Virus record (IMG/VR): IMGVR_UViG_3300046780_000129
Span: 1 to 22,915 of that record
Origin: a virus
Strand: one strand, 5' to 3'
Length of the DNA: 22,915 nucleotides
Below, piece after piece: positions 2,873 to 21,344 of this stretch (position 1 is its first letter; each line of letters opens with the position of its first letter). The notes below the pieces were generated by a model. It had not been told where the DNA came from. It searched no databases and worked only from the letters and a program-made list of their open reading frames with translations. A program made the position numbers and the translations under genes.

Positions 2873-2886
2873 CCTTTTGATTGAGG
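2873..2886 (+). promoter_or_regulatory. Ribosome-site hairpin before protease/scaffold gene
   Basis: CCTT (2873-2876) can pair with GAGG (2883-2886) around the hexaloop TTGATT. The 3' arm is the Shine-Dalgarno sequence, six bases before the ATG at 2893. It is a weak stem (one G-U pair), but it has the same placement as the UCGCUG-loop hairpins elsewhere in the window. Confidence 0.4.
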
Positions 2887-2892
2887 ACTTTT

Positions 2893-4020
2893 ATGCCACT
2901 AGAGCGTTTGCCCGTCGAAATCCTGTCCGTCGGCAAGTGGAAGGGCCGGGAGTATGCCCTGGCCGACTTGCAAGCGATGGAGAAGAACTTTTACCGTCTC
3001 CACGGCCAGCTTAAGCCGCCTTTGAAGTTCGGGCACTCAGACGATCAGAAACTTACCGGGCAGAAAGACGGGGACCCGGCGCTGGGACAGGTGGCCGAGT
3101 TGCGAGTAGTGGGAGACAAGCTGATCGCCACGCTTAGCAACATGCCGGAGATCGTGCAGGACGCCATCAGCAAGGGCCTCTATACCAATGTCTCAAGCGA
3201 AGTGTCGTTTGGCGCAACGCTGGACGGAGAGGACCTTGGGCCGGTGCTGACGGCCCTGTCGCTGCTAGGAGCGGACCTGCCCGCCGTCAGCAATCTATCC
3301 GGCCTCAAAGCCTACCTGTCCGCAGAAGCGGAAAAGGTCTTGACCGCCCTCAAGGGCGCACAGTTGGAAACCCTCAGCTATCCCGCGCCTAAGCGGGTGG
3401 AGAATACAATGCCCGATAAAACCCCGCTGGAACTGGCGCAAGAGCAAATCGCCAAGCTGTCCCTTGAACTGCAAACAAAAGGACAGTTGGAAAAGGACAA
3501 GGACGCCGAGCTTGACAAGCTCCGCAAGGGCCAGCGCGAAGCCGCCTTCAATATCCAAAAGACGGAACTCCTGTCTTGGGCGGAAGGCGAAGTCAAAGCC
3601 AAACGGATGCTGCCCGCGCACCGCGAGAAGATCGACAGCCTCCTGTCCGTGCAGAAAGAGGACTTCATGGCGGGCAAGATCGAAAAGCTGTCCCTGTCGG
3701 CCACGGATATGCTCTCACTCTTGAAGGACCTGTCCACCGCCAAGCTGCCCAAGACGGGCGAGTTGGCGCTGCCCGGCTCCACGTCGGAACTCTCGGCTGA
3801 CGCTGACACCACGGACCCGGCTGATGAACTCGCCAAGAAGGTTGACGAGATTTTCAAGGCTGGCAACGGGAAGGTGGACTATCAGACGGCGACGAAAGAA
3901 GCCTATTCCCAAAATCCCGCGCTGTTCTCCCGTTACCATGATTCACGGGACCATTTCGCGGACCTGGGCGAACGGGAATTGCGCCGGAGCGGGAACGCAA
4001 AGGCCGCAGTAGTGAACTAA
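2893..4020 (+). CDS. Head maturation protease with C-terminal scaffold (Mu I-like)
   Basis: A 375-residue protein at the usual place before decoration and major capsid genes. Residues 1-170 resemble the Mu gpI type capsid assembly protease: LKFGHSDDQ with His48, and YTNVSSEVSF at about 97-106, where I infer Ser101 or Ser102 as the likely nucleophile. From about residue 173 the protein becomes charged and coiled-coil (LELAQEQIAKLSLELQTK onward), as expected of a scaffold that shapes the procapsid and is then cleaved. The ATG at 2893 is preferred over an upstream TTG at 2881 because TGAGGA lies six bases before it. An internal start at 3409 probably yields free scaffold. It has its own promoter just upstream. 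Confidence 0.85.
   Translation: MPLERLPVEILSVGKWKGREYALADLQAMEKNFYRLHGQLKPPLKFGHSDDQKLTGQKDGDPALGQVAELRVVGDKLIATLSNMPEIVQDAISKGLYTNVSSEVSFGATLDGEDLGPVLTALSLLGADLPAVSNLSGLKAYLSAEAEKVLTALKGAQLETLSYPAPKRVENTMPDKTPLELAQEQIAKLSLELQTKGQLEKDKDAELDKLRKGQREAAFNIQKTELLSWAEGEVKAKRMLPAHREKIDSLLSVQKEDFMAGKIEKLSLSATDMLSLLKDLSTAKLPKTGELALPGSTSELSADADTTDPADELAKKVDEIFKAGNGKVDYQTATKEAYSQNPALFSRYHDSRDHFADLGERELRRSGNAKAAVVN
3409..4020 (+). CDS. Nested scaffold protein, internal in-frame start
   Basis: An ATG at 3409, in frame with the protease/scaffold gene (its codon 173), is preceded by GGAGA (3399-3403) with five bases of spacing, a better ribosome site than chance would usually give. The resulting 203-residue product starts MPDKTPLELAQEQIAK and contains only the charged, heptad-like half. 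Mu (I/Z) and lambda (C/Nu3) make free scaffold in the same way from the end of the protease gene. The product is inferred; the site and phase are seen. Confidence 0.6.
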   Translation: MPDKTPLELAQEQIAKLSLELQTKGQLEKDKDAELDKLRKGQREAAFNIQKTELLSWAEGEVKAKRMLPAHREKIDSLLSVQKEDFMAGKIEKLSLSATDMLSLLKDLSTAKLPKTGELALPGSTSELSADADTTDPADELAKKVDEIFKAGNGKVDYQTATKEAYSQNPALFSRYHDSRDHFADLGERELRRSGNAKAAVVN

Positions 4021-4104
4021 GCCGGATGGGTGGACCCGTGTCTGGCGTGCTGGCTAGGCTCCACGGATATTCCCCGGCAAGGGCTACAAGGGTAGGAGAA
4101 TCAA

Positions 4105-4527
4105 ATGCTCGGCTCGGGCCAAGTCACTATCACGATCAAGGCCATCAACGATCTGTCCAACCCGTCGGATCAGTTCAAGGCAATCGCTTGGACCGGCGAC
4201 TTTGCGGCCAATGGTCGCACCACCGCCGGAGTGCTGATTGCGGGCGCCACGTCAGGGAACTACGTTACGATCCTGACCAACGGACGCTCCAAGTATTACA
4301 TGGGCGTTGCCGCGTGCAGCTTCGGCACGGCGCTGACTGTCACGGCCTCGGGGTACTTCGCGGCCATGTCGGCGGGTGCCCATGAGGTCGGCGTCTGCAT
4401 GGGGCAGGATGGGGCGGACAACAAGACGCCCGTTAACTGTTCCTGGGCTGCTGGTCTGTTCAACTTCCACAACAAGCCGTTTGCAAACAACCTCGCCTCT
4501 TCGGCGGGACAAGGCGCGTTCATTTAG
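4105..4527 (+). CDS. Probable capsid decoration/stabilisation protein
   Basis: A 140-residue protein between scaffold and major capsid genes, the usual place for a head decoration protein. It is small, beta-rich and Gly/Ala/Thr-rich, with AGVLIAGATSGNYVTILTNG followed by LTVTASGYF, a pattern like the DUF2190-type capsid cement family. Three cysteines are spread through the C-terminal half. The ATG has a strong site (GGTAGGAG, six bases before it). The 84-base gap upstream holds a short CCGTG/CACGG inverted repeat (4036-4040 with 4062-4066), and it is the one long plus-strand gap where I do not find the recurring UCGCUG-type hairpin. The role comes mostly from position. Confidence 0.6.
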   Translation: MLGSGQVTITIKAINDLSNPSDQFKAIAWTGDFAANGRTTAGVLIAGATSGNYVTILTNGRSKYYMGVAACSFGTALTVTASGYFAAMSAGAHEVGVCMGQDGADNKTPVNCSWAAGLFNFHNKPFANNLASSAGQGAFI

Positions 4528-4541
4528 TCGGCCATTCGCCG

Positions 4542-4561
4542 GGCGTGGTCGCTGCCACGTC
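4542..4561 (+). promoter_or_regulatory. UCGCUG-loop hairpin upstream of major capsid gene
   Basis: A seven-pair stem (4542-4548 with 4555-4561, one G-U) closes the hexaloop TCGCTG (4549-4554). It lies 33 bases before the capsid ATG and does not cover the ribosome site. Its stem sequence is unrelated to those of the other hairpins; only the loop is shared. Confidence 0.6.
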
Positions 4562-4594
4562 AACCACTCAAAAGGCTAATGAAGGGAGAAGGCC

Positions 4595-5581
4595 ATGCCC
4601 GGCGGCTCTGCAATCGGTAAGCTGTACATCGACCCGCTGCTGTCGAATTTCGCCGTCACGTACCGTCCCCAAGGATTCATTTCCCAGGACGTATTGCCCA
4701 TCATCCAAGTCGCCAAGCAGTCAGGCATCTACGCTCGGCTGGAACAGGCTGACCAATTCCGTATCCCGGACACGACCCGCGCCCCTGGCGATGAAGCCAA
4801 GATCACTCGGTTCCGTGTTGGGTCGGATAACTACTTCTGCGTCAACCGCGCCTTGAAAACGCGGGTGCCGGTGGAAGACTTGGCGAACGCCCAGCCGCCT
4901 TTCCTGCAATACCTGGAACAGGCGCGGACGGGTACGACCATGAATCAATTGCTCCTGGACCTGGAAAAGAAAACGGCGGACATTTTCGCCACGGGTGCGG
5001 GGTCCTCGGCTGCTGTCGCTTCGGCATGGTCTGTCCTTGCCGGGGCCGGATCGCCATTCAACGATATCAACGTGGCGAAGGACAACGTGCGGAACTCCAC
5101 AGGCTACCATCCGAACACCATCATCTTCGGGTACAACGCCTGGGAAGATTATCGTCGGCACAATGAGACGATCAACAAAGTGTTCCGCACCGCGCAACCC
5201 GGCGCTGCGCCGACTCCTGGCGACGCTGAGCTTGCCACCGTGGCGCGTATCTTCGATGTGCAGCGGGTATTCGTGGGCCGGGCCTACAAGCAGACGGGCG
5301 CGGAAAATATCACCGCGGGCGCAGGCTATCCGCTGGCGGCGAACATCGCTCCGGTCTGGTCCAACTTCGTGTGGGTCGGCTATCAGAAGATGGATGCCAT
5401 GACGGTAGAGGACCCGACGTTTGCAGCGGCGTTCCGGTGGACAGTGCCGGGGATTCCTTCGCTGCAAGTGGAGCGGTTGCCGTACAACGCCTATACCAAG
5501 TCGGAGGACTTGGAAGTCGGGTACTACCAGATTGAGAAATTGGTAGATTCTCGTCTGGGCTTCCTCATTACCGGGGCCTAA
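4595..5581 (+). CDS. Major capsid protein
   Basis: A 328-residue protein of the expected length for an HK97-fold shell subunit. The N-terminus reads IDPLLSNFAVTYRPQGFISQ, then VLPIIQVAKQSGIYARLE and DTTRAPGDEAKITRFRV. This is the recognisable start of a large phage capsid family in which a conserved arm (IDPxLTNxAxxYR, KQSGxY, RAPGxEA) precedes the HK97 core. NTIIFGYNAWEDYRRH and DVQRVFVGRAYKQTGA in the middle also fit. Ribosome site AGGGAGAAGG lies just before the ATG. A UCGCUG hairpin lies upstream and a long GC-rich hairpin follows the stop, so this message is bounded by structure on both sides. If virion glycans exist, this abundant protein is one candidate acceptor. Confidence 0.9.
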   Translation: MPGGSAIGKLYIDPLLSNFAVTYRPQGFISQDVLPIIQVAKQSGIYARLEQADQFRIPDTTRAPGDEAKITRFRVGSDNYFCVNRALKTRVPVEDLANAQPPFLQYLEQARTGTTMNQLLLDLEKKTADIFATGAGSSAAVASAWSVLAGAGSPFNDINVAKDNVRNSTGYHPNTIIFGYNAWEDYRRHNETINKVFRTAQPGAAPTPGDAELATVARIFDVQRVFVGRAYKQTGAENITAGAGYPLAANIAPVWSNFVWVGYQKMDAMTVEDPTFAAAFRWTVPGIPSLQVERLPYNAYTKSEDLEVGYYQIEKLVDSRLGFLITGA

Positions 5582-5592
5582 TCCGCCCCATT

Positions 5593-5633
5593 GGCGCGGG
5601 TGGGGGGTTTCCTCCTTTCCTCCCGCCCGCGTC
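5593..5633 (+). terminator. GC-rich hairpin after major capsid gene
   Basis: A 15-pair stem (5593-5607 with 5619-5633, three G-U pairs) with an 11-base pyrimidine loop starts 12 bases after the capsid stop. It is followed by ACCCCTTTT, only a short T run, so it may be a partial terminator, an attenuator, or a 3' stabiliser that keeps capsid message abundant relative to downstream genes. Confidence 0.5.
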
Positions 5634-5636
5634 ACC

Positions 5637-5651
5637 CCTTTTGCTGAGAGG
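5637..5651 (+). promoter_or_regulatory. Ribosome-site hairpin before proline-rich gene
   Basis: CCTTT (5637-5641) pairs with AGAGG (5647-5651), one G-U, around TGCTG. The 3' arm is the Shine-Dalgarno sequence, six bases before the ATG at 5658. The loop matches the UUGCUG/UCGCUG set. Confidence 0.5.
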
Positions 5652-5657
5652 ATCACT

Positions 5658-6011
5658 ATGGCTTTGACAGCAATCCCCCCGCGTGACGATTCACGCCGGG
5701 AAGAAGCGCGGTATGCGGCGGACTTGCAAGATGCCAAGGACCGCCCCTATGCCTGGGGCGCTGGCGCTAATCAGGTGCCCGAGAACATCATCCATGAAAC
5801 AGTGACGTATCGCACTGTGGAGCGTCCCGCTCCGGTTCCCGAGCCTACGCCGATAGTGGCGCAAGTTCAGACCCCCGCACCCGTGCCGCCTATTCCGCCG
5901 GTTGCTCCGAATCCGCAACCCGCTCCTGAGCCCGCGCCCGTACAGGGCCGTCCGCTGTCTGCAAAGCCGGGCGTGTTCATCGGCCCCGATGGCCGCGCAG
6001 AATATGTGTAG
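5658..6011 (+). CDS. Proline-rich hypothetical protein
   Basis: A 117-residue protein not recognised as a known family. The first ~50 residues are polar and charged (DDSRREEARYAADLQDAKD). Residues ~55-100 are a Pro/Ala/Val/Glu low-complexity run (PAPVPEPTPIV and PAPVPPIPPVAPNP), and the end is LSAKPGVFIGPDGRAEYV. The central part would be extended and unfolded. Some phages have similar small proteins between capsid and connector genes, but no function is assigned. An extended Pro-rich segment rich in small residues is also a plausible glycan acceptor or linker; that is only a suggestion. The start is set by the GAGAGG site within the hairpin above. Confidence 0.7.
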   Translation: MALTAIPPRDDSRREEARYAADLQDAKDRPYAWGAGANQVPENIIHETVTYRTVERPAPVPEPTPIVAQVQTPAPVPPIPPVAPNPQPAPEPAPVQGRPLSAKPGVFIGPDGRAEYV

Positions 6012-6019
6012 TCCTTTTC

Positions 6020-6037
6020 AACCTCTCGCTGGGGGTT
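6020..6037 (+). promoter_or_regulatory. UCGCUG-loop hairpin over the miniprotein ribosome site
   Basis: AACCTC (6020-6025) pairs with GGGGTT (6032-6037), one U-G pair, closing the loop TCGCTG (6026-6031). The G run in the 3' arm is the only Shine-Dalgarno sequence for the ATG at 6041. Confidence 0.6.
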
Positions 6038-6040
6038 TCA

Positions 6041-6169
6041 ATGTGCGTTTGCACACTTTCAACGGAAATCTGCCACGCCATTGGCTACACATTAATGGTG
6101 TTGGGCGGATTCGGGATGCTTTTAAGCATTAGCATCTTCTTTCAGGCTTGTCTTGAAAGGAGGGGCTAA
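6041..6169 (+). CDS. 42-residue membrane miniprotein
   Basis: A short frame runs from ATG 6041 to TAA 6167-6169. The product begins MCVCTLSTEICHAIG and has one hydrophobic segment at about residues 13-36 (IGYTLMVLGGFGMLLSISIF), ending in a basic tail ERRG: a single-pass membrane protein, probably with its C-terminus inside. Four cysteines (residues 2, 4, 11 and 37) are many for its length. Support for a real gene: it fills an otherwise empty gap, has a G-rich ribosome site in a recurring hairpin, and its TAA overlaps the ATG of the next gene by one base, so it is translationally coupled to a glycosyltransferase. It might anchor that enzyme or a lipid-linked sugar step; this is speculation. 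No family is recognised. Confidence 0.6.
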   Translation: MCVCTLSTEICHAIGYTLMVLGGFGMLLSISIFFQACLERRG

Positions 6170-7155
6170 TGGACATTGCCTTACTCACTAACAAGGTAGA
6201 CCGCCCCTGGGACCCCGCCCAGGTATTAGGGCAGGGCTTGGGCGGGTCCGAAGAGGCATGTGTTCTGTGGGCCGAAGCCGTGGCCCGCAATGGGCATAGC
6301 GTCACGGTTTACGCTTCCCTGGCCCGTCCTGAGTACAAGGGAAAGGACGGGGTAGCGTGGAAGCACCGTGGGTCCTTTGCGGAATCCCGCCATACCGTCC
6401 TAGTCACTTGGAAAGAGCGGGAGCCGTGGTTGACCGGCGGGCATGGCGCGGCCCGGATGATTCACTGGTCCTCTGACGTGGAATTCGCCCACCAATGGAC
6501 CCGGCCCGCCCTGACTCGGCTGGACGCGGTGATTGCACTATCCCAGGCGCATGGTAGGGCGCTGGCGTGGATGGGGCACAAGGTCCGGGTCCAGCCTCAA
6601 GGCATCGATGGTTACTACTTGATCCGTCCGCCCGTCCAAGCGCATCAGAATATGGCGATCTACTGTGCCAGCCCGGACCGTGGGCTTGAGTTTACGATCA
6701 GGCATTGGAATCGGATCAAGGCCGGGCTGGGATTGGAACGGCTTCTCATATCCTACGTGTTCGCCGGACCGCAGCCCGGCAATCCCGCGCCAGATATTAC
6801 GATCTTGCCGCCTCTGGACGTATCGCAATGGGAGCAAGTCTTAGCGTCCTGCAAGTATTGGATTCATCCCGTGCAAGGGAATAATGGGCCGGTGCCCAAT
6901 AGCGAGCTATTTTGCTTGAACGCGGTCAAGGCGCAAGCGGATGGACTGATTCCGGTAGTCCCAGCGGCCCGGCTGGCAGACACGGGGCTGGGTGATACCG
7001 TCAAGTCCTATGTGGACTTGTCCGAGTTGATCCTGCATGGGGATGCGAGCATCAAGCACAACCCGAATGCCCGCATGGAACTGCCGTTATCCTGGGATCA
7101 GGTGGTGGAAAAGTATTGGGAGCCGCTATTTGCGGGAAATGGCGGACCGGATTGA
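6169..7155 (+). CDS. Glycosyltransferase, GT4-like
   Basis: A 328-residue GT-B fold protein. N-terminal domain: GLGGSEEACVLWAEAVARNG then VTVYA, typical of the acceptor-side Rossmann domain; DAVIALSQAHGRAL and QPQGIDGYY close it. C-terminal domain: YCASPDRGLE, the donor-side start, and IHPVQGNNGPVPNSELFCLN. It matches the N-terminal GT4 part of the large downstream fusion (LGGSE, SRPERGLK, AQAGG), so the two are probably paralogues. In the EX7E motif of GT4 enzymes the first Glu is E246, but the second is Lys254 (aligned with E296 of the fusion), so donor binding may be altered or activity reduced. The start overlaps the miniprotein stop; ribosome site AAAGGAGG is strong. Confidence 0.85.
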   Translation: MDIALLTNKVDRPWDPAQVLGQGLGGSEEACVLWAEAVARNGHSVTVYASLARPEYKGKDGVAWKHRGSFAESRHTVLVTWKEREPWLTGGHGAARMIHWSSDVEFAHQWTRPALTRLDAVIALSQAHGRALAWMGHKVRVQPQGIDGYYLIRPPVQAHQNMAIYCASPDRGLEFTIRHWNRIKAGLGLERLLISYVFAGPQPGNPAPDITILPPLDVSQWEQVLASCKYWIHPVQGNNGPVPNSELFCLNAVKAQADGLIPVVPAARLADTGLGDTVKSYVDLSELILHGDASIKHNPNARMELPLSWDQVVEKYWEPLFAGNGGPD

Positions 7156-7315: not shown

Positions 7316-7317
7316 CC

Positions 7318-7331
7318 TCCCTTGCTGGGGA
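7318..7331 (+). promoter_or_regulatory. UUGCUG-loop hairpin over ribosome site of the GT fusion
   Basis: TCCC (7318-7321) pairs with GGGA (7328-7331) around the loop TTGCTG (7322-7327). The 3' arm GGGGA is the Shine-Dalgarno sequence, seven bases before the ATG at 7338. Confidence 0.5.
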
Positions 7332-7337
7332 ATCCTG

Positions 7338-10300
7338 ATGGCTACGCAAGCGCAGTTGGTTCGCCGTTATGTGATTTATATTCCAGGGATGCCCTTTGAT
7401 GGAAATTCTATCAAACAGGCGTCCCTCGGGGGATCGGAAACGATGGGCTATTACTTGGCGCGCGGACTAGCCCAGGAAGGCAACGAGGTTGTGGTATTCA
7501 GCGGGTGCAATGCGCCCGTGACGGTGGACGGCGTCAGCTATGAGCCGATGGGCGAGCGCAATCAGCAATTCCCCTTCGGCAAGCTCTACCAACAGAAGGT
7601 GGCGAGCTTGCCGCATGACGTGACGATTGCCCAGCGCCAGCCCGGAATCTTCGGCTGGCCCCACGCGAGCGCAATGCGCTTTTGGTGGACCCACGACTTG
7701 GCTTTGGAGCGGGCCAACGATCAGGTCAAGGCCGGGCTATGGAATTGTCACGGCATCCTAGCCGTGTCGGAATGGCACAAGCAGCAAGTCGCCAAGACCT
7801 ACGGCCTGCCCGAGTCCTTCGTCCACGTCTTGCCTAACGGCATTGACCGTGACTTGTTCCACCCGACAGACGCGGCCACGCGCCAGAGGGACAAGGTGAT
7901 GGTCTATACGTCCCGGCCCGAACGGGGATTGAAGTATCTGCTACAGCCGGGCGGGATCATGGAGCGGCTCGCCAAGACAGTCCCGGACGCCAGTCTCTTG
8001 ATCTGCACTTACGATCACATGGCCCCCGAGATGCAGGGCATGTATCAGCAGATGTTGAATTGGGGAGCGGCCCTGCCCAATGTGACCTTCCTTCCGTCTC
8101 AGACAAAGCAGGGCGTGGCGGACCTTATGTCTAAGGCGTGGTTGCACGTCTACCCGGTATTGCCGCCCCTGGACGATCAAGGGCACGTTACCTTCGAGGA
8201 AGTTTCGTGTATCTCCGCAATGGAAGCACAGGCGGGCGGCGCTCCCTGTGTGACGGCTCCTTATGGTGCTCTGCCCGAGACGCTAGAAGGTGGGGGCGTG
8301 TATTGGGCTTGGGAGCGATTTACCCATCCCAGCGACGCCAACGAAAAGATCGCGGAGGGCTATCCGAAGTCTGATGCTGAATATCAGGACGCTTTCGCTA
8401 CCGCAATCGAAACGCTGGCCGATAAGCCGGATATGTGGACGGTCCTGCACCGGAAGGCGCTGAAACAAGCGCAAGCGTACACCGTGAAAAAGCTAGCCGG
8501 GCAGGTGTCCGCTCTTGTGGACCGTAGCCAGTCCCTAGCGGCTCAGCGACCTGCCCGGCTAGCCCACTCGCTGCTGTGGTGGTCGGAAAAGCTAGCCTTC
8601 GATGCCCTTGTGAAAGATGGCAAGCTCGGATGGCCCGGCGACTGGACCCGCTGGGTCCGTTCCGAATTGCCACGGTATACCCTGGCGCTAACAGATGCCA
8701 AGGCCGTCTATGACGAATCCGCCGCCTACAATGACCGCATCCAGAATATGCACCACTTGGGAAATGACCCGATGGTGCTGGCGATGCACCGCTATCAGGC
8801 CATGCGGCCCTTCGTGGAGCAGTTGCCTCCGGGGTCCAAGGTCCTGGATTACGCCTGTGGCGTCGGCATGGGCACGATTGCCTGGGCGCGGTCCGTGCGG
8901 CCTGACTGCAAGTTTCACGGGGTAGATATTGCGGCCTTGAGCGTGGAAAAGGGCCGGGCCTATTGCGAGGCGAACAAGATTGAGAACTGCACATTTGGGA
9001 CGGCGGACGAGCCGAAGAAGGTCCCGAATGGTCCGTTTGACTTGATTATCGCCTCGGAGATTTTGGAGCATGTGGTAGACCCCGCCAAGCTGGCGCAAGG
9101 GCTTGAACGGCTCTTGTCTCCTACGGGGCGCATTGTGGTCACGGTGCCCTTCGGTCCAATGGAAGCCCAGCGGCAAGATGAAATCCCGTGGCGGGAGCAT
9201 GTGTCGCACTTCTCGCACCATGACGTAAGGGCGATGTTCGGCCACAAGCCGGGGTATATGTGGAGCGTGTTCGGGTGGGGAGAGGTCAATCGGGAAGGGG
9301 ACCCGGTAGGTGGCACGCTCATTTCCTGGCAGCAAGGCGGAGCGCCGGTCAACGAGCCGGACTATGACGCCAAGCTGAAATATATTTACCCGCGTGAACA
9401 CGTCTCCCTGTGCATGATTGTGCGGTGGAACGAGTTGGAACTGGACAAGTGCCTGAAAACCGCCATGCCGTTCGTGGATCAGGCCATCATCGGGATTGAC
9501 GACAAGGGGAATCCCATGCCGGGGAGCGGCCCCGCGTGGGCCATTGCCTTGGAACATGAGGCGGATCAGGTATTTGCCTTGACGGCCTCCCCGGTGGATC
9601 AGGGATTCGACAATGCCCGGAACGAGACGGTGGCGCGGGCAACTGGCGAGTGGGTGCTATGGCTAGACGCGGACGAGCGGCTTTGTTACGGCGAGCGGAT
9701 GCACAAGTATCTCCGCAAGTCCTGGATTGATGCCTGGGCCATCCCTCAGCATCACTTGTCCGTAGAGCCTCCGGGGAACCTGAAAACCGATATGCCGTGC
9801 CGCTTGTTCCGCCGGGACTTGGGCATGAAGTTTATCGGCCTTGTGCATGAGCATCCTGTCTACTCGGAAGATGCCCCGCCGAAGCACGCGGCCCTGATGA
9901 ATGACGTTTGTATCGAGCACACCGGGTACGTGACGGAACAAGTCCGGCGCGCCCGCTTCATGCGGAACCTGCCCCTGATCGCCAAGGATCGGGAACAGCA
10001 CCCGAAACGGTCCCTTGGCCGGATGCTGTGGCTTCGGGACTTGGGCCATCAGGCCATGTACTGCCAGCAACGGAACGATCAGCAAGGCATGGCGCACTTT
10101 GCAACAGAAGCGGTAAAAGAATGGCGGTCGCTCTTGGCCCTTGGCGATATACGTCTATCGCTCGAAGGCTTGCCCTACGCAAGCATGGCAGCGGGAATGC
10201 TCGCCGGGCCGGGAGCGATTGAAGTCAGGACGAGCGTGGATACGCGGCGGGTGGGGATTGGCGGGACGTTCGGACCGCCGCAGATGGTACAAGGGCAATT

Positions 10301-10382
10301 TGTAAACACGGACGATGCACAAGCCTTTCTGGACGTGGTGCAGAAGGAAGCCTTGAAGGGGCACAAGTCGAGGTATTGGTAA
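7338..10382 (+). CDS. Trimodular GT4 - methyltransferase - GT2 protein
   Basis: A 1014-residue cytoplasmic enzyme with three catalytic modules. Residues ~10-400: GT4 glycosyltransferase (SLGGSETMGYYLARGLA, HVLPNGIDRDLF, TSRPERGLKYLL, and the EX7E motif from E288 to E296 before AQAGG). Residues ~440-660: class I SAM methyltransferase with motif I VLDYACGVGMG at 502-512 and IIASEILEHV further on. Residues ~685-880: GT2 glycosyltransferase starting SLCMIVRWNE, with the DxD-type metal site at D777/D779 in WLDADER. The last ~130 residues are helical and may be a TPR-like or interaction part. One polypeptide could add a sugar, methylate it, and add another, as in capped O-glycan synthesis. The ATG at 7338 is chosen for its hairpin-borne ribosome site; an upstream frame extension lies inside the preceding gene. 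Confidence 0.88.
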   Translation: MATQAQLVRRYVIYIPGMPFDGNSIKQASLGGSETMGYYLARGLAQEGNEVVVFSGCNAPVTVDGVSYEPMGERNQQFPFGKLYQQKVASLPHDVTIAQRQPGIFGWPHASAMRFWWTHDLALERANDQVKAGLWNCHGILAVSEWHKQQVAKTYGLPESFVHVLPNGIDRDLFHPTDAATRQRDKVMVYTSRPERGLKYLLQPGGIMERLAKTVPDASLLICTYDHMAPEMQGMYQQMLNWGAALPNVTFLPSQTKQGVADLMSKAWLHVYPVLPPLDDQGHVTFEEVSCISAMEAQAGGAPCVTAPYGALPETLEGGGVYWAWERFTHPSDANEKIAEGYPKSDAEYQDAFATAIETLADKPDMWTVLHRKALKQAQAYTVKKLAGQVSALVDRSQSLAAQRPARLAHSLLWWSEKLAFDALVKDGKLGWPGDWTRWVRSELPRYTLALTDAKAVYDESAAYNDRIQNMHHLGNDPMVLAMHRYQAMRPFVEQLPPGSKVLDYACGVGMGTIAWARSVRPDCKFHGVDIAALSVEKGRAYCEANKIENCTFGTADEPKKVPNGPFDLIIASEILEHVVDPAKLAQGLERLLSPTGRIVVTVPFGPMEAQRQDEIPWREHVSHFSHHDVRAMFGHKPGYMWSVFGWGEVNREGDPVGGTLISWQQGGAPVNEPDYDAKLKYIYPREHVSLCMIVRWNELELDKCLKTAMPFVDQAIIGIDDKGNPMPGSGPAWAIALEHEADQVFALTASPVDQGFDNARNETVARATGEWVLWLDADERLCYGERMHKYLRKSWIDAWAIPQHHLSVEPPGNLKTDMPCRLFRRDLGMKFIGLVHEHPVYSEDAPPKHAALMNDVCIEHTGYVTEQVRRARFMRNLPLIAKDREQHPKRSLGRMLWLRDLGHQAMYCQQRNDQQGMAHFATEAVKEWRSLLALGDIRLSLEGLPYASMAAGMLAGPGAIEVRTSVDTRRVGIGGTFGPPQMVQGQFVNTDDAQAFLDVVQKEALKGHKSRYW

Positions 10383-10918: not shown

Positions 10919-10919
10919 C

Positions 10920-11875: not shown

Positions 11876-11878
11876 TCT

Positions 11879-12067: not shown

Positions 12068-12070
12068 ACA

Positions 12071-13030: not shown

Positions 13031-13040
13031 CAGGTTAACC

Positions 13041-13056
13041 CCTCTTCGCTGAGAGG
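13041..13056 (+). promoter_or_regulatory. UCGCUG-loop hairpin over ribosome site of tail chaperone
   Basis: CCTCT (13041-13045) pairs perfectly with AGAGG (13052-13056) around the loop TCGCTG (13046-13051). GAGAGG is the Shine-Dalgarno sequence, five bases before the ATG at 13062. This is the clearest member of the set. Confidence 0.65.
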
Positions 13057-13061
13057 CAACA

Positions 13062-13481
13062 ATGGAACTGGACTTAAGGTTGCGGCGGCTGGAACTGCCG
13101 CAAGGCGTAACGCTGGTTTGCAAGCCAATGAACCTGTCGCAATTCCAGCGGTGGATCACGGCGATTCAGAAAACGCAAGGGACCACAGCGGTAGATCAGA
13201 TCGCCAATACGGAGTTGATGAACACGGCGGAAGCCCTCTTGCGCGAGTGCATCCAGGGCGTAGAAGGCGTGACGATCCGGGCCACGGACTCCACGCCAGC
13301 AAGGCCGGGGACCTTTGATGACTTGCTGGCAGTTGGCGGGATTGGGATGGGCGTCCTGTTCCGGGCCGTGACTGCCCTGTTTCAATCATCGGGCCTACCG
13401 GAGATAGAAGCAAAAAACTCCGCAGCGCCGCAGATCGCTGGGCAGCCGGGACCGGCGGCGCTACCGGTATTGACCCGCTGA
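13062..13481 (+). CDS. Tail assembly chaperone G
   Basis: A 139-residue, mainly helical protein between tail tube and tape measure, the fixed place of the lambda G-type chaperone that coats the tape measure during tail assembly. It begins MELDLRLRRLELPQGVTLVC and contains NTELMNTAEALLRECIQGV. Codons 118-119 lie on a slippery A AAA AAC heptamer at 13412-13418, and most ribosomes would read through it to the TGA at 13479, giving this short form. Confidence 0.8.
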   Translation: MELDLRLRRLELPQGVTLVCKPMNLSQFQRWITAIQKTQGTTAVDQIANTELMNTAEALLRECIQGVEGVTIRATDSTPARPGTFDDLLAVGGIGMGVLFRAVTALFQSSGLPEIEAKNSAAPQIAGQPGPAALPVLTR

Positions 13482-13687
13482 TTGAGGGCAAGCCGTTCTC
13501 GGTATGGTGGATGCTGTATTGGGAATGCCATCAGGGCAACGGCATGGGCGCTGTGATGAATTGGCGCACCCTGGACGGCAGGACGGCCCTGGAACAGCCT
13601 TATCCGTGGCTATTGATACAGCGCGAGATAGGCCGGGCAGTATCCGAGGCGATACAGGCACAGCAAAGGAAGCCCCGTGGCGACTGA
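13062..13687 (+). CDS. Tail assembly chaperone G-T, -1 frameshift product
   Basis: The join is 13062-13418 then 13418-13687 after a one-base backward slip. In the new frame, the message reads KLRSAADRWAAGTGG and then IDPLIEGKPFSVWWMLYWE, ending RKPRGD at the TGA 13685-13687, giving about 208 residues. The extension is open from well upstream of the slip site, has no good start of its own, and fills the gap up to the tape measure, whose GTG it overlaps by 11 bases. Lambda-like phages make G-T the same way, and the T part binds tube subunits and tape measure. Confidence 0.8.
13412..13418 (+). other. Programmed -1 ribosomal frameshift site
   Basis: AAAAAAC is phased as A AAA AAC in the G frame (GCA AAA AAC), the canonical X XXY YYZ form. 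Four bases downstream CAGCG (13423-13427) can pair with CGCTG (13436-13440), and GCCGG/CCGGC follows at about 13445, either of which could act as a stimulatory structure. Confidence 0.85.
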
Positions 13688-15566: not shown

Positions 15567-15569
15567 CCT

Positions 15570-17579
15570 ATGCGCTCCCTGCCTTCCGTCGCTTCCGCAA
15601 CGCAAATCCTATGCGACATTGGCCTGTCGCTGACGGACCCGTCCAGCGTTCAGATCGGGACGTTCAGCTTCGGGGACGTGGTGGCGTTGTCCCCGGTCCA
15701 ATTTGAAATCCCCTTCGGCGGTGGGTTGCCGTCGCCTACCGTGTATCAATGCACGTTAAGCACGAGTCCCGGATGGTGGCTTGGCAACCGGGCGCGGCTG
15801 ACGGGCGCTGAGGCGCGGCTGACGGCGTTTGCCAACTCAGACAACTTCCAGGTCCACGTCGGGCGCATCGGCTCTATCGCCACGGACCCGGTAGACCCCA
15901 ATCAATTCACGCTCTCGATTTACGACAAGCTGCTGTACAACGATCCGCTTGTGCCGGTGGAGGCTATCGTAGACTCATGGAGCACGCCGCATATAGAACA
16001 CCTAACGGACGGGTATCCGCTTTATTATGGAACCGAAACGACTAGACCTATTGTGCTATCTCCCGTAACTAGTGATTGCTCTGTTTGGCTTGGCCCTCGC
16101 AATATAAGTTCAGCAAATCATAGCTTACAAAATTTGAAATTTTGGCGCGACGGCGGCAATTTATATTCGTTAATGCCTCTGATAGTTTTCCCGTCGTCCT
16201 GGATGCAGCAGAGTGGGGATAGTAATTGTATTAGTGGAACGGCCCTAGCTATAACGCTGGCTAGTCCGGTGGTGGTTGCGTTTCCAGGCAGTAATAGTCT
16301 TTTCAATTTTGGACCGCTTCAAAATTCTGGCGGAAACCCAACAAGTGCTTATACTTTCGCAATGCAAAGCATTAGGACCCGGGGGAACGATGTTGCGGCT
16401 GTAAATTCGGCCTCGGCGGCATCGTTCTTGGTTTCCCAAGAATTTTCATTGTCCCGCATTGACGTAATAAGTCTTAGCACTATGGCGGTTGATCTACTAA
16501 GCGGTGCGCCCGGAGTCACGAGTAATTTTACCGGCCTTGTCCAATTATATGATCCAACTCTTGGGGGGGATTATCAAACAACTGGATATTCTGTCGTTTC
16601 TTATAGCCTGATATCCAGCGCCTCGGCTCGAGCGTTTATCCGTGGTATTATGTCTGTAACTCCCGGGGCTATATATGCGGACGGGGCGAAGTTCACGCTC
16701 AGTATATTTACAACTAGTGGCGGTTATACCCCGGTGGGGCTAAATGCGCGGCTTTATCCAGTGATTAATCTTCAACCGCTTAGCTATAGGCGATATTCGG
16801 CTTATGTTTCTGGCGTGGGGGTCGCTATCGCTATAACCAATAACCCTATCGCCATTCTTGACGATGTGCTTTCGCACTATACGTCCACGCCTTACCGTCA
16901 GGATCAGTCCAGCGCCGCTCAGGTGCTAGTCCAGTCCTTCCAATTCAACGGGGCCTACATTGGCCCGGAGCGGCAGCGCCTTAGCGTCTTAATGGACGAT
17001 TTTGCGCGGACATGCGGATTTAACTTTTGGGCATCGGATTCCGGGGCGGTGGCCTACCGCGTCTATGCCGAGAGCGCCGTTGCTACCAATTCCATAGCAG
17101 CGGTGATTACCACGTCGGATATGCTCTCATTCCAACTGCTGACTAGCCCGCTCGGGACAACGATCTTCAATCAGCAGGGGTACGGGGCGTTTCAGCTGGA
17201 CTGGAACTTCGACTACCAACTGAACAAGTACCAGAACACCACGCTTGCGAATAAGACGGTGAATGCCCTGTGTAACTCAGCCTTTGCGGGCGGAGCACAA
17301 AAGACATTCAAGCGCCAGTCAAAGTACGTGATGGACGCGGACGCGGCGAGCTATGCGAATGGGCACGCGGTCAGGATGGGAGCGCAGGGGCAGGACTACG
17401 TGGTGCTGACGTTACCGGCCCGGTACTTCGGATTGGAGCTTGCGGATATTGTGAACGTGAGGCACCCGCTCTTGACCGGCACCGGCCAGCTATTCCAAGT
17501 AACGAAGTGCGCCCCGGATTATTCGACCGGGAAAGTGATGGTGACGGCGGGGCAACTCTTGAGCGCGGCGGGGACCTAG
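15570..17579 (+). CDS. Tail hub / baseplate protein with inserted low-GC segment
   Basis: A 669-residue protein just after the tape measure, where the tail hub (the gp27-like ring at the tail end) is expected. Residues 1-150 (IGTFSFGDVVALSPVQFEIP, ARLTAFANSDNFQVHVGRIG) and ~430-669 (LDWNFDYQLNKYQNTTLANK, DADAASYANGHAVRM, LPARYFGLELADIVNVRHPL) look like the two halves of a hub fold. Between them, residues ~150-427 are Ser/Thr/Asn-rich, beta-predicted and encoded by much more AT-rich DNA, which suggests an acquired domain, possibly for receptor or glycan binding. The ATG is three bases after the previous stop. The 3' end overlaps the convergent minus-strand gene. Confidence 0.75.
   Translation: MRSLPSVASATQILCDIGLSLTDPSSVQIGTFSFGDVVALSPVQFEIPFGGGLPSPTVYQCTLSTSPGWWLGNRARLTGAEARLTAFANSDNFQVHVGRIGSIATDPVDPNQFTLSIYDKLLYNDPLVPVEAIVDSWSTPHIEHLTDGYPLYYGTETTRPIVLSPVTSDCSVWLGPRNISSANHSLQNLKFWRDGGNLYSLMPLIVFPSSWMQQSGDSNCISGTALAITLASPVVVAFPGSNSLFNFGPLQNSGGNPTSAYTFAMQSIRTRGNDVAAVNSASAASFLVSQEFSLSRIDVISLSTMAVDLLSGAPGVTSNFTGLVQLYDPTLGGDYQTTGYSVVSYSLISSASARAFIRGIMSVTPGAIYADGAKFTLSIFTTSGGYTPVGLNARLYPVINLQPLSYRRYSAYVSGVGVAIAITNNPIAILDDVLSHYTSTPYRQDQSSAAQVLVQSFQFNGAYIGPERQRLSVLMDDFARTCGFNFWASDSGAVAYRVYAESAVATNSIAAVITTSDMLSFQLLTSPLGTTIFNQQGYGAFQLDWNFDYQLNKYQNTTLANKTVNALCNSAFAGGAQKTFKRQSKYVMDADAASYANGHAVRMGAQGQDYVVLTLPARYFGLELADIVNVRHPLLTGTGQLFQVTKCAPDYSTGKVMVTAGQLLSAAGT
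16015..16850 (+). other. Low-GC segment inside the hub gene
   Basis: By hand count, bases 16021-16080 hold 24/60 G+C and 16081-16140 hold 22/60, against 43/60 at 15781-15840 and 41/60 at 17341-17400. AT-rich codons (ATA, TTA, AAT, AGT) dominate and the reading frame is intact, so this looks like a transferred domain. The ends are estimated by eye. Confidence 0.7.
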
Positions 17580-17587
17580 AAGGCCCC
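17570..17587. terminator. Hairpin across two convergent gene ends
   Basis: GGGG-A-CC (17570-17576) can pair with GG-CCCC (17582-17587) around TAGAA, with one bulged A. The loop region holds both convergent stop codons. Neither strand has a T run after it, so it would be at best a weak or factor-dependent terminator. Confidence 0.3.
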
Positions 17588-18133
17588 GTGAAAGCCAAGG
17601 CCCCATCCTACTTGATCGGCCTGGAACTCAACGCCCGAGAGAAAGGAAAACCAGACGGCGCGGGGAGTGCCGTCAAGGAAGCAGCCAATAACAACAGCGC
17701 CAGCAAGAGAGGAAATTGCAGCGGCATCAATCTGAGTGCCGGATGGATGCTTGCTAAGAAGTGGCGAGGTCTCGGTTGCCTTGGACGTGCCGATGAACTG
17801 TTTGGTCATTCGCCAGTCCTGGTACAGCAGCGCCGTGTAGGTCGTGGCTAGCACGGTATCCGACGTGCGCCAGTCGTCACAGAACGCAAACGCTCTTGCC
17901 GGGAGCATCAGCAGCGCCAGTACCAGCATCGTCCATCCGGCTTTCGCCAAGAGGGACAGGACTTCGGGCTTGGATTCAGGCGGCACTCGGATGGAAGCAG
18001 CTTGTTCCACGGAGATACCGGATGATCCGGGGATCGTGACCAAGGAATCGAATACCGGGGCTAGTTCAGGACCGGGGCCAGTCAAGTAGACGCGGAGCGT
18101 GGATTCAGTTTCATTCAGCTTGTAGGATTTCAT
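17576..18133 (-). CDS. Phage membrane protein on the opposite strand
   Basis: A 185-residue protein read against all its neighbours. Residues 64-83 (KAGWTMLVLALLMLPARAFA) are a membrane or signal-like segment; the part after CDDWRT reads SDTVLATTYTALLYQDWRMT, then ETSPLLSKHPSG and a second hydrophobic stretch at about 137-153. This second half resembles, from memory, a small family of proteobacterial and phage membrane proteins with W..aDT...a......DW.QT......ETNPiLG.HPS. The first 63 residues are soluble and unfamiliar; a later start (Met69) would give a plain signal peptide ending AFA. The start at 18133 is favoured by its GAGAGG site and the promoter upstream. Own promoter and reversed direction mark it as a moron-type insertion. 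Confidence 0.75.
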   Translation of the reverse strand: MKSYKLNETESTLRVYLTGPGPELAPVFDSLVTIPGSSGISVEQAASIRVPPESKPEVLSLLAKAGWTMLVLALLMLPARAFAFCDDWRTSDTVLATTYTALLYQDWRMTKQFIGTSKATETSPLLSKHPSGTQIDAAAISSLAGAVVIGCFLDGTPRAVWFSFLSGVEFQADQVGWGLGFHGAF

Positions 18134-18140
18134 GGACTTG

Positions 18141-18154
18141 CCTCTCGCAAAGGG
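18141..18154 (-). promoter_or_regulatory. Ribosome-site hairpin, minus-strand gene
   Basis: On the minus strand CCCTTTGCGAGAGG can fold with CCTT pairing to GAGG (one G-U) and a small loop. The 3' arm is the Shine-Dalgarno sequence, seven bases before the start at 18133. The loop differs from the UCGCUG form. Confidence 0.35.
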
Positions 18155-18176
18155 TCAATCCGTGTAACCTGAATCC

Positions 18177-18205
18177 ACCATAGCCTGTCGCTAGGACATT
18201 GTCAA
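18177..18205 (-). promoter_or_regulatory. Sigma70-type promoter for the minus-strand gene
   Basis: On the minus strand TTGACA (18205-18200) is followed after 17 bases by TATGGT (18182-18177). RNA would start near 18170, leaving a leader of about 37 bases before the start at 18133. The spacer overlaps the leader and ribosome site of the plus-strand gene at 18206, so the two genes could interfere. Confidence 0.75.
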
Positions 18206-19036
18206 GTGGCTATTGAAATAGGGGCATTGCTGGGACAGCCCGCCGGGGGCCAGTCCTTTGAAAACGTGTCCTCGTGGGCCGTCACGGGGCAATGCTCCTT
18301 GTTTACCCAAGCGGCTACCCTGTCCCTGGTCCATTCATCGGCCACTGGGGCATGGCTTAAGGTCTACTCGGCGGGTGCCCCTGGCAAGCTGAGCTACGGA
18401 TACGGGCAGGGCAACGATGCGTACTTTGTTTGGAACTCGGCAGTCAATACGCATGGGGTTTCTGTTATGGGCTGGGCGGCGATGGACCGGGCCGCAACAT
18501 CGGGGATGGTGACGGCGGTGTTTACCGGCGGGACCTCAGTCCCCATTCCCTATGCCATCACCTTGCAGCCGTTCCGCATTGACGCGCCAGCGGTGATTAG
18601 CGGGCAAGCCCTAGCCTTGGATTTCCAGATCATGTCCGGCATGACGGGGAGCGGAGGGCTGTTCATAGACGATCTGCTCGTCTCAGTAGACTGGTTCCAG
18701 ATCGGCCCGGACTTCTCTTCCAAACGGCAGTTCCAATTAGGGCGGGTCCAGCATACCACGTATGGCGGACGGGAGGCGATGTACAATTGGTTTCTCCGGC
18801 CCGCGTTCCTGCTCCCCTGTCCCACAGTGCCCGGCTCCCTGGCGGATGTGCTTAACAATTGGTGGCAGATGGGGACGGAGCTAAGCCTGACGATGGACAG
18901 CAGCAATTCAGAGGCACGGTATGTGGTGCGGCTAGGGGGCCAACTTCCGCCCGCCACGGGATTCCGCTCTCCCTATTTCAACGTCCAGCCTGTTACCCTG
19001 AACGTCCAGGGGCTACACGGCAGTCTCGATTTCTAG
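18206..19036 (+). CDS. Tail-tip protein with extra N-terminal beta domain
   Basis: A 276-residue protein from GTG 18206 (AGGA at 18193-18196). Residues ~1-150 look like a jelly-roll: SSWAVTGQCSLFTQAATLSL, LSYGYGQGNDAYFVW and GLFIDDLLVSVDWFQIG, as in carbohydrate-binding modules. Residues ~165-276 share a pattern with the next gene product: FQLGRVQH at the start, LNNWWQMGTELSLTMD against INTWWNQQTELVFTIN, then VVRL and a final TLNVQ strand. These are probably paralogous beta-sandwich proteins of the tail tip or distal tail. Position after the hub agrees. A weak CCT/AGG hairpin with loop GTCGCT at 18184-18195 precedes the start. Confidence 0.65.
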   Translation: MAIEIGALLGQPAGGQSFENVSSWAVTGQCSLFTQAATLSLVHSSATGAWLKVYSAGAPGKLSYGYGQGNDAYFVWNSAVNTHGVSVMGWAAMDRAATSGMVTAVFTGGTSVPIPYAITLQPFRIDAPAVISGQALALDFQIMSGMTGSGGLFIDDLLVSVDWFQIGPDFSSKRQFQLGRVQHTTYGGREAMYNWFLRPAFLLPCPTVPGSLADVLNNWWQMGTELSLTMDSSNSEARYVVRLGGQLPPATGFRSPYFNVQPVTLNVQGLHGSLDF

Positions 19037-19045
19037 GGGACCTGA

Positions 19046-19519
19046 ATGGACTACCAGACTTTTTTCCTCTTCGACATGACCGGCGCTCAGCCGTCCGTCC
19101 AGCTATTCCCCAAAGTCTCCTTCAATGAGACACGCCAGCTTGTAAAGGAAGAGCAAGTCACCGTCGGGGGCCTGTTCCATACGTACCTGCCGGGCTTCAA
19201 GGGCTATGAGTGGACAATCCCGCTGGCCTTCGTCAACTCGTCCCAGCGGGCACAGATCAATACATGGTGGAATCAGCAGACGGAACTAGTGTTCACGATC
19301 AACGCCTCTGTCTCGGCATTGTCTCCGCAGAGTGCCGTGGTGCGGATTGCGAATCAAATGGAACCTCTCGGGGAAAGCCCGGACGCACGGACGGACCTGT
19401 TTAACGGGGGCCTGACGCTCCGGCTGTCCAGGGGCACGTCCATTTTCAACGGCTATCCGTTCATCCTGGACGATCCGGTATTGGGAGTGCTGGACCAGAC
19501 GTATAACCTGTTGGCTTAG
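19046..19519 (+). CDS. Tail-tip protein, paralogue of the preceding one
   Basis: A 157-residue beta-rich protein. INTWWNQQTELVFTIN, SAVVRIANQMEPLG and a final NGGLTLRLSRG match the C-terminal half of the product encoded at 18206-19036, so the pair probably arose by duplication, with a domain gained or lost at the N-terminus. It has no extra N-terminal domain and begins MDYQTFFLFDMTG. The order hub, tail-tip proteins, fibres suggests it sits in the ring that carries the fibres. The start is ten bases after the previous stop, with GGGGAC upstream. The role is inferred from place and pattern. Confidence 0.6.
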   Translation: MDYQTFFLFDMTGAQPSVQLFPKVSFNETRQLVKEEQVTVGGLFHTYLPGFKGYEWTIPLAFVNSSQRAQINTWWNQQTELVFTINASVSALSPQSAVVRIANQMEPLGESPDARTDLFNGGLTLRLSRGTSIFNGYPFILDDPVLGVLDQTYNLLA

Positions 19520-19529
19520 AGGCGTCTAA

Positions 19530-20603
19530 ATGGGATGGAGTTCACTTTCATTCCCGCTGAATAGCACGCTCCGCGCCGCATACATGACGGGGATATTCAG
19601 TAACTTTGCCTCGCTGGCCTACCAGGAATCCGGCGCTCCGCAGATTACCGGGCCGTGGTCCCTCTTGGGCAATCTGGACGTATCAAGCGCCTTCACAGTC
19701 GGCGGCGTAGCGGTGGGCGGGACAGGATTGACCGCAGGGATGAACTCGGGCGGCGCGTTCTTCGCCTCAAGTGGCTATCTCACCACGGGCGTCAGCAGCT
19801 TCGGCCAACTCAATATCTCTAGCGGCATCCGTGCTCCGGCAACGTCCAGCTTCGGGACTGTGGATATAGTGACGCTGACGGTGGGAGGCGTGACCCTCGT
19901 GGGCCTGGGGGCCGGGGTCAATTCAGGCGGGTCATTCCAGGCGGCAAGCGGGTACACCACGGTTGGCGTTGCGTCCTATGGGTCCCTGAATCTCTCAAGT
20001 CTGTTTACGGGCGGGGGTATCACCGGGGCGGTTGCCAGCCTTACATCCGTGCGCGTCGCCTCTGGATTCGTGACGGTGGGGATTGATTCATCCGGGACGG
20101 TCAATGCCTCAAGCCTCGTGACGGCTCCGGGCATGACGATGACGACGGCCAGCGTGTTCGCCGTCAACGTCGCCAGCGGGATTACTGGCCCCCAAGCAAA
20201 CAGCTTTGGATCGGCGCATATCTCTTCGCTGTTCATGCTGATGGGCAGCGAAACCTCGCCGGGGCTGGCGTTCCAAGTCGGCCAAGTAGCACGGTGGGGC
20301 GTGACCAAGGCGGGCGGATTCGTGACCCAACCCGGCTCTATGAGTCAGGGCTTCAATTGCGTAGCATCCCGGATTAGTGCAGGATTGTTCCGGCAGGTAT
20401 TCTCGGCGGCAATGGCCGTCTCGCCCTATGCGGTGACAGTAACGCCATTCGGGATCGTAACGAGCCTTTCCAGTGCTGTGCTCTGGACGGTGCAATCCAT
20501 GGCGACAACCGGATTTTACGCGGCCTTTTTCAGCGTGCTCTCCAACGGTTTGGCGAAGGACCCGTCCAGCGGCTTCATGTTCCATGTAATCGGGCAGCAA
20601 TAA
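19530..20603 (+). CDS. Tail fibre with beta repeats (long form)
   Basis: A 357-residue protein. The N-terminal ~60 residues (FSNFASLAYQESGAPQITG) look like a tail-attachment part. Residues ~75-240 are about seven degenerate repeats of roughly 20 residues, built on S-S-F/Y-G-x-L/V-N-x-S-S-G/L (SSFGQLNISSG, ASYGSLNLSSL, DSSGTVNASSL, NSFGSAHISSL), typical of a trimeric beta-helix shaft. The last ~90 residues (VSPYAVTVTPFG, TTGFYAAFF, KDPSSGFMFHVIG) are a compact tip, probably the receptor-binding head. Ends and core are shared with the next gene. The ATG follows GAGGCG with seven bases of spacing. Confidence 0.8.
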   Translation: MGWSSLSFPLNSTLRAAYMTGIFSNFASLAYQESGAPQITGPWSLLGNLDVSSAFTVGGVAVGGTGLTAGMNSGGAFFASSGYLTTGVSSFGQLNISSGIRAPATSSFGTVDIVTLTVGGVTLVGLGAGVNSGGSFQAASGYTTVGVASYGSLNLSSLFTGGGITGAVASLTSVRVASGFVTVGIDSSGTVNASSLVTAPGMTMTTASVFAVNVASGITGPQANSFGSAHISSLFMLMGSETSPGLAFQVGQVARWGVTKAGGFVTQPGSMSQGFNCVASRISAGLFRQVFSAAMAVSPYAVTVTPFGIVTSLSSAVLWTVQSMATTGFYAAFFSVLSNGLAKDPSSGFMFHVIGQQ

Positions 20604-20612
20604 GGCAGAATC

Positions 20613-21326
20613 ATGGCGCAATTCACCATCCAGACATTCCCAGGGTCCAGCGTCTTGACCTCGCCGCAAATGAACGCGGTATCGTCCAACTTCGCTTCCC
20701 TGATGATGCAAGAGAATAGCGTCCCGCCGCTTGGGGGAACGTGGAGCTTTGCAGCGGCGTCCATCCTTGACGCGCCGGGGTCCCATCACTTTGGCACGCT
20801 CAAGGTAGATTCGGCGGTGCTGATTCAGGGGGCGGCCTTGATTGGCGTCGGGGCCGGGGTCAATTCGGGAGGTTCCTTCTTTGCTTCTAGTGGATTCAAC
20901 GGGCCGCAAGCTAACAGTTATGGATCGGTCAATGCAACCAGCGGATTTCAGGCCCCAGCGACGACGCAATCCTCACTCGGGAATCTGAATGTGGGTTGCT
21001 TGACCGTGGTGAATATAGGATACCCGGTGAAGGCATGGGCAGCCATCTCGCTTCCAGGTAGTGCGATGCAGGGAGCTAACCTTGTTAGCTCTAAGACCAC
21101 GATCACCTCTGGGAACTATTGTCTGACTTTTTCTACCCCGATGGCCTCATCTTTGTACGCCGTTACGGTAACTCCCCTGGGCGGTTCCGCTTTTCTCACT
21201 GTTGGTCTGAGCTGGGAGATCCGCAGCCCTGGAACTACTGCATTCTATGTGCAATTTGAGAAATCGGGTGCCGGTGGCCAGACTGATCCTGATTCCGGCT
21301 TCTCCGTAATGGTTATGGGCAACTAA
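20613..21326 (+). CDS. Tail fibre with beta repeats (short form)
   Basis: A 237-residue paralogue of the preceding fibre. SSNFASLMMQENSVPP matches its N-terminus, GVGAGVNSGGSFFASSG matches its shaft, and LYAVTVTPLGG, TTAFYVQFE and DPDSGFSVMVMG match its tip. It has two or three shaft repeats instead of seven. The tip is coded by less GC-rich DNA than the shaft, as if the tip had been exchanged. With the long form it may give two fibres of different length or a mixed fibre. The ATG is nine bases after the previous stop. Confidence 0.75.
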   Translation: MAQFTIQTFPGSSVLTSPQMNAVSSNFASLMMQENSVPPLGGTWSFAAASILDAPGSHHFGTLKVDSAVLIQGAALIGVGAGVNSGGSFFASSGFNGPQANSYGSVNATSGFQAPATTQSSLGNLNVGCLTVVNIGYPVKAWAAISLPGSAMQGANLVSSKTTITSGNYCLTFSTPMASSLYAVTVTPLGGSAFLTVGLSWEIRSPGTTAFYVQFEKSGAGGQTDPDSGFSVMVMGN

Positions 21327-21330
21327 TCCC

Positions 21331-21344
21331 CCTTTCGCTGAGGG
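21331..21344 (+). promoter_or_regulatory. UCGCUG-loop hairpin after the fibre genes
   Basis: CCTT (21331-21334) pairs with AGGG (21341-21344), one U-G pair, around the loop TCGCTG (21335-21340). It lies four bases after the fibre stop and 34 bases before the next ATG, so it does not cover that gene's ribosome site (AAAGGAA). A TTTT run follows, so weak termination is also possible. Confidence 0.5.

Follow-up and report, generated by a model that had tools for sequence, protein, structure and literature searches.

Background

Hairpins of the form (X)2-8 CUUCGG (Y)2-8 are present in T4 and many other phages, where they are mainly intergenic (Tuerk et al. 1988, via PMC8948821), and transcript stability or processing have been proposed as their roles (PMC8948821). 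Start-Associated Sequences (SAS) have been reported, without known function, in Cluster K mycobacteriophages and in Cluster EF Microbacterium phages (PMC3203893, PMC7302621). The T4 CUUCGG hairpins and the actinophage SAS are the closest known kinds to the element described here. Other repeats and hairpins near start codons include the Cluster K ESAS repeats, which were judged to be DNA-binding sites with changes that do not generally keep pairing (PMC3203893), and the 18-bp inverted repeats found 5' of starts in 8-10 copies in Cluster EG Microbacterium phages (PMC7302621). In phage Mu, the small protein Com reads a six-residue loop near the mom start and switches translation on (PMC6483171), and sequestering of the Shine-Dalgarno (SD) sequence is well known in phage mRNA, e.g. 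T4 e, soc, 49 and I-TevI (PMC3014915).

We report a set of RNA hairpins with the loop UYGCUG in a sequence fragment from an uncultured tailed phage, the 22,915-base virus record IMGVR_UViG_3300046780_000129 of IMG/VR (positions 1-22,915; referred to as the window). The set occupies at least five, probably six, intergenic gaps between structural genes, and it is a variant, not a member, of the CUUCGG, SAS or Com families, the defining sequence features of which it does not have.

Results

Comparison with described phage elements

As for the CUUCGG hairpins, one phage carries many short hairpins, mostly intergenic, that combine a fixed six-letter loop motif with varying complementary stems; however, the loop here is UYGCUG and not the extra-stable C(UUCG)G, and most of the copies overlap the ribosome-binding site. 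The CTTCGG motif itself occurs 29 times in the window and forms no hairpin in a gap, its best stem (4 pairs) being inside the ORF 21793-22533. With the SAS the hairpins have in common a repeated motif in a single orientation. The SAS are placed at the SD, a few nt before some start codons, and with respect to this position four of the six sites end 3-6 nt before ATG while two lie 33-34 nt before. The SAS are, in contrast, nearly fixed 13-bp sequences (GGGATAGGAGCCC or GGGAAAGGACCCC), whereas only the loop is conserved here and the arms differ; moreover, the Cluster K copies precede non-structural genes and the genes here are mostly structural. The arms of the ESAS did not support RNA pairing, unlike those in the window. 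The Cluster EG repeats, too, are inverted and occupy short gaps, with a typical distance of 14-22 bp to the start, but their single-consensus arms (GATCAACCNNGGTTGATC) fit a DNA-binding site, whereas the window shows varying arms around a fixed loop.

The Mu Com/mom system resembles the present one in its short start-proximal hairpin with a six-residue loop, which in Mu is read by a small phage protein that controls start access, and the portal protein encoded in the window is a Mu-like portal/MuF fusion (Pfam/PHROGs scans of the window proteins). It differs in that Mu has a single site and that the recognised motif is CC(N)2-3GAG, not UYGCUG. CC(N)2-3GAG is not present in the loop, and the same scans of the proteins of this 22.9-kb fragment detected no com-like protein; since the window is a fragment, a protein reading the loop could be encoded outside it. 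Finally, the SD-sequestering hairpins of T4 also have the SD inside a helix before a phage gene, but these are described as single-gene devices and PMC3014915 mentions no common loop.

Gene content of the window

The major capsid protein gene (4595-5581, plus strand; phrog_1005 major head protein, E 3.7e-50) is located 3' of the strongest hairpin, and a putative maturation protease gene starts at 2893 on the plus strand. Tail tube and tape measure proteins are also encoded. The putative tail assembly chaperone gene (13062-13481, plus strand), which is 3' of another hairpin, carries a -1 frameshift signal, an in-frame A_AAA_AAC at 13412-13418 that is a canonical slippery heptamer; from there the -1 frame adds 89 aa, ends at 13687 and overlaps the tape measure start, and this is likely the tail assembly chaperone frameshift.

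Several putative glycosyltransferase genes are interspersed among the head genes (1881-2858, 6169-7155 and 7338-10382). The last of these corresponds to a 1,014-aa glycosyltransferase-methyltransferase-glycosyltransferase fusion, and the first is assigned from reading its sequence, without a family match. A 42-aa ORF (6041-6169), for which the Pfam/PHROGs scans gave no family match, is positioned between a hairpin and the glycosyltransferase gene with which it shares a TAATG overlap; judging from its hydrophobic stretch it probably encodes a membrane protein. Two neighbouring genes at 19530-21326 have motifs that are common to both and repeated inside each (FGS/FGT, then V or L, N, and SSG), and apparently encode repeat-built fibre proteins.

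Hairpins in the gaps between genes

The preliminary description of this DNA listed five exact UCGCUG/UUGCUG hexaloops, and all five are present on the plus strand with stems of 7, 6, 4, 5 and 4 pairs. GGCGUGG-UCGCUG-CCACGUC (4542-4561; 7 pairs) begins 14 nt after the upstream stop and ends 33 nt 5' of the capsid ATG (4595), with a predicted energy in isolation of -10.9 kcal/mol (z -2.8) and a covariance model (CM) score of 21.4 bits. AACCUC-UCGCUG-GGGGUU (6020-6037; 6 pairs, -6.6 kcal/mol, 23.3 bits) is 8 nt after a stop and 3 nt 5' of the ATG (6041) of the 42-aa ORF. UCCC-UUGCUG-GGGA (7318-7331; 4 pairs, -6.9 kcal/mol, 20.0 bits) is 2 nt after a stop and 6 nt 5' of the ATG (7338) of the glycosyltransferase-methyltransferase gene, and CCUCU-UCGCUG-AGAGG (13041-13056; 5 pairs, -6.3 kcal/mol, 22.7 bits) is 10 nt after a stop and 5 nt 5' of the ATG (13062) of the putative chaperone gene. 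The fifth, CCUU-UCGCUG-AGGG (21331-21344; 4 pairs, -5.9 kcal/mol, 21.0 bits), is 4 nt after a stop and 34 nt 5' of the ORF at 21379.

The shorter-loop relative, also listed earlier, was found as the plus-strand pentaloop hairpin CCUUU-UGCUG-AGAGG (5637-5651; five pairs, -4.2 kcal/mol, z -2.8). It is 55 nt after a stop and 6 nt before the start of the ORF at 5658, the SD of which is its 3' arm. Its CM score (12.2 bits) is within the background; given the right placement and a fold better than 200 of 200 shuffles, it is a probable member of the set.

Three looser versions (2873, 18184 and, on the minus strand, 18141) did not hold up, since a model built from the five hexaloops reports none of them at E≤10 and they are indistinguishable from background. 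The look-alike CCUU-UUGAUU-GAGG (2873-2886, plus strand), before the putative protease gene (2893), is a weak 4-pair hairpin (-3.5 kcal/mol) with a loop that is not UYGCUG, and it was rejected as a member together with that at 18141. The version at 18184-18195 was also rejected; it falls in the spacer between the two halves of TTGACA-17-TATGGT (18205-18177, minus strand), which is the best sigma-70-like match of the region and faces the lone minus-strand ORF 18133-17576. The initial count of seven of eight gaps with a hairpin is thus reduced to six of eight on a strict count (five hexaloops and one pentaloop), the 2873 gap being lost; the gap before 4105 lacks a copy, as had been described. 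Where adjacent genes overlap stop-to-start or are ≤18 nt apart, the junction has no hairpin copy.

The loop is fixed and the stems compensate

In an ungapped alignment of the five hexaloop copies, T, G, C, T and G of the loop are invariant and the second position is C or T, while no stem column is invariant. For the inner four pairs all 20 cells (20/20) are standard pairs and both sides vary at every pair, in agreement with the earlier claim of compensation around a fixed loop. The pairing percentage and covariation score of the five stems were reached by none of 500 shuffles, and pairing was lost when the partner was slid by one to three columns. When the 3' arms were re-dealt among the sites, the true assignment was the best (1/120), beating all 119 others. 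The 4542 stem (GGCGUGG/CCACGUC) is GC-flipped relative to the C-rich/G-rich others while having the same loop, and its arms are complementary to none of those at the other sites. The remaining four of the five stems are similar to each other, part of which may reflect shared descent, given five sites.

With a covariance model built from the five hexaloops, the members scored 20.0-23.3 bits and were separated from all else in the window, the next best place (14.9 bits) being in coding sequence; as the model was trained on the five copies themselves, this represents separation and not independent discovery.

Excess over chance

TYGCTG occurs 50 times in the window, both strands included, and each occurrence was scored for uninterrupted closing pairs. 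Six fall in plus-strand gaps between genes, against approximately 0.35 expected (Poisson p 2e-6). Five of these six have a stem of ≥4 pairs, and the sixth (5641) has a five-pair stem if the loop is read as UGCUG. The remaining 44, counted over both strands, are closed by at most 2 pairs (stem ≥4: 5/6 vs 0/44, Fisher p 2.8e-6).

Because TYGCTG had been picked after looking, we also ran a test that is free of the choice of loop. Every hexaloop hairpin with a stem of ≥4 pairs was considered in the 522 nt of gaps, and the statistic was the largest number of hairpins with a common loop, one purine or pyrimidine ambiguity being permitted. The observed value was 5, while 5,000 dinucleotide shuffles of the gaps gave ≤3, with 3 reached 3 times; the hairpins therefore pass the shuffled-sequence control. 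Same-size sets of non-gap segments reached 4 once in 5,000, and seven related phage regions, tested on their annotated gaps (5 to 22 each), gave 1-3, usually 1-2.

Overlap with the Shine-Dalgarno sequence and predicted folding

In the preliminary description the 3' arm was identified with the SD in several of the gaps. This applies to 5637, 6020, 7318 and 13041, where a purine-rich arm ends 3-6 nt before ATG, but not to 4542 and 21331, which lie 33-34 nt 5' of their starts.

In isolation the hairpins are predicted to be modestly stable (-4.2 to -6.9 kcal/mol), with the exception of 4542 (-10.9). In longer windows, the minimum free energy fold keeps the core hairpin as such at 6020, 7318 and 21331 (3/6), and at 13041 the helix is kept with an outward extension, while 4542 and 5637 give way to other folds. 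At most sites RNA folding turns UYGCUG into a YGCU tetraloop closed by a U.G pair, which would present a compact surface for recognition. At the capsid gene an alternative fold of 10 pairs is predicted between 4541-4550 (5' arm) and the start-codon region (4591-4600), and the 4542 hairpin could keep the capsid start open against this helix. Compared with other starts, those with a hairpin show no consistent decrease in the predicted accessibility of the ribosome-binding region; since these estimates show no consistent hiding, simple repression by hiding the SD is unsupported as the whole story.

Terminators, promoters and Rfam

No terminator U-tract is present at the hairpins, except for a poor one at 21330, and 21330 is also the sole hairpin site among the 18 matches of a loose terminator scan (18.8 expected, i.e. 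background). The reading as intrinsic terminators, which have a G+C-rich stem followed by a U-run, was rejected. Rfam covariance models gave no match at E≤1 in the whole window, and promoter-like matches overall are no more frequent than in shuffles. The suggestion of a timing device separating operons thus receives no direct support, the hairpins being without a promoter-like site or a true terminator.

Search for relatives

No near relative of the window was found among 50,697 phage records, and no close relative was identified among viral and genome contigs, collections that may lack the records most similar to the window, by the capsid, portal, tail tube, gene 18206 or glycosyltransferase proteins. 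The capsid protein matches are all under 60% identity, and about 24-28% in those aligned. Neither the known phages with these related capsid proteins (about 24-28% identity) nor the distant portal relatives (loci L017-L058; best segments 21-32% identity) have a set of hairpin copies. Motif scans of IMG/VR with CCTCTYYGCTGAGAGG and CCTTTTYGCTGAGAGG, each followed by ATG, retrieved 5 and 1 contigs, respectively; these were rejected as carriers and treated as chance, the loci inspected showing isolated matches and no contig with several start-proximal copies. High CM scores in L002-L006 and L059 are circular because these loci had been retrieved by motif.

Discussion

The data from this genome give good support to the shared post-transcriptional element proposed in the preliminary description, with its fixed loop and compensating stems; its suggested roles as protein-binding site, cleavage site or timing device are conditional readings of these data. 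We tentatively favor a recurring cis-acting element of the late polycistronic mRNA, the loop of which is read by an RNA-binding protein that alters ribosome access at uncoupled cistrons. The hairpins would then be copies of a single element, and the recognised part would be the U-Y-G-C-U-G loop, probably as a U.G-closed YGCU tetraloop, on any short stem. The element would be placed in the short gap from a stop to the next start, with the 3' arm mostly being the SD region. An RNA-binding protein, phage- or host-encoded, would most likely read the loop, and this would change ribosome access where the cistron is not coupled to the preceding gene by a stop-start overlap. The stem would be opened or held either by the bound factor or by ribosomes as they complete the gene upstream. 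Such an element would be used at cistrons that need an independent start. That the hairpins form in the cell, that a factor binds them and in which direction it acts are inferences. The copies at 4542 and 21331 count against an SD-based reading, since at 33-34 nt before the start they leave the SD uncovered. The accessibility estimates and the alternative folds at 4542 and 5637 likewise weigh against the favored reading. It appears rather doubtful that this extends to a regulon, in which one phage RNA-binding protein reads UYGCUG before most uncoupled late cistrons and thereby sets capsid, glycan-modifying and tail output, with the capsid-gene hairpin perhaps also acting as a switch against the 10-pair helix.

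Somewhat unlikely, yet to be taken seriously, is that the hairpin acts in mRNA processing or stability, being cut by an RNase III/E-like or phage nuclease or blocking exonucleases, such that cistrons are separated or protected. The anatomy is that of the CUUCGG intergenic hairpins (PMC8948821). At five of the six sites the hairpin follows soon after the upstream stop (2-14 nt), and the two start-distant copies (4542 and 21331) fit better here than under SD control. However, CUUCGG is conserved owing to its unusual stability, while the predicted energies of the UYGCUG hairpins are ordinary and we know of no comparable extra stability for this loop. Moreover, with 4-7 pairs the stems are short as RNase III substrates, and the SD overlap at four sites is left unexplained.

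Passive translation coupling would require no reader of the loop; a pyrimidine-rich stretch would pair with the SD and be opened only by ribosomes ending the upstream gene. At 6020, 7318 and 13041 the stop is 2-10 nt before the hairpin and the SD is within the 3' arm, the hairpin energies (-4 to -7) are near those of the predicted SD:anti-SD duplexes (-5.5 to -9), and SD sequestering has the T4 precedents mentioned above (PMC3014915). The fixed loop is nevertheless unexplained, as the shuffles share any loop among ≤3 hairpins, and the SD falls outside two of the copies; we regard this explanation as improbable.

We give still less weight to an inherited cassette, i.e. a duplicated ribosome-binding site or module-boundary sequence (CCYYYYYGCTGRRRGG) with ancestral complementarity and, at module boundaries, a function in recombination or otherwise at the level of DNA. 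The likeness of four of the five stems (C-rich/G-rich) and copies that flank inserted genes, e.g. glycosyltransferases, are consistent with this, as is the judgement that the Cluster K ESAS, where pairing is not kept, are DNA-binding sites (PMC3203893). In contrast, the stem changes here keep pairing, including the fully flipped 4542 stem, and the supported copies are all on the same strand and oriented like the gene that follows them. Chance combined with selection by eye, conceivable for a short motif that was noticed a posteriori in a single fragment and has looser copies at noise level, is highly improbable since it is rejected by the controls corrected for loop choice (shuffles and seven phage regions).

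The amounts of protein made from one late transcript in tailed phages are mostly ascribed to promoters and to ribosome-binding strength. In the window, pairing is kept while the letters change, and RNA rather than DNA is therefore the likely target here. A fixed-loop hairpin repeated at starts would point to a trans-acting reader of RNA that acts on many late genes together.
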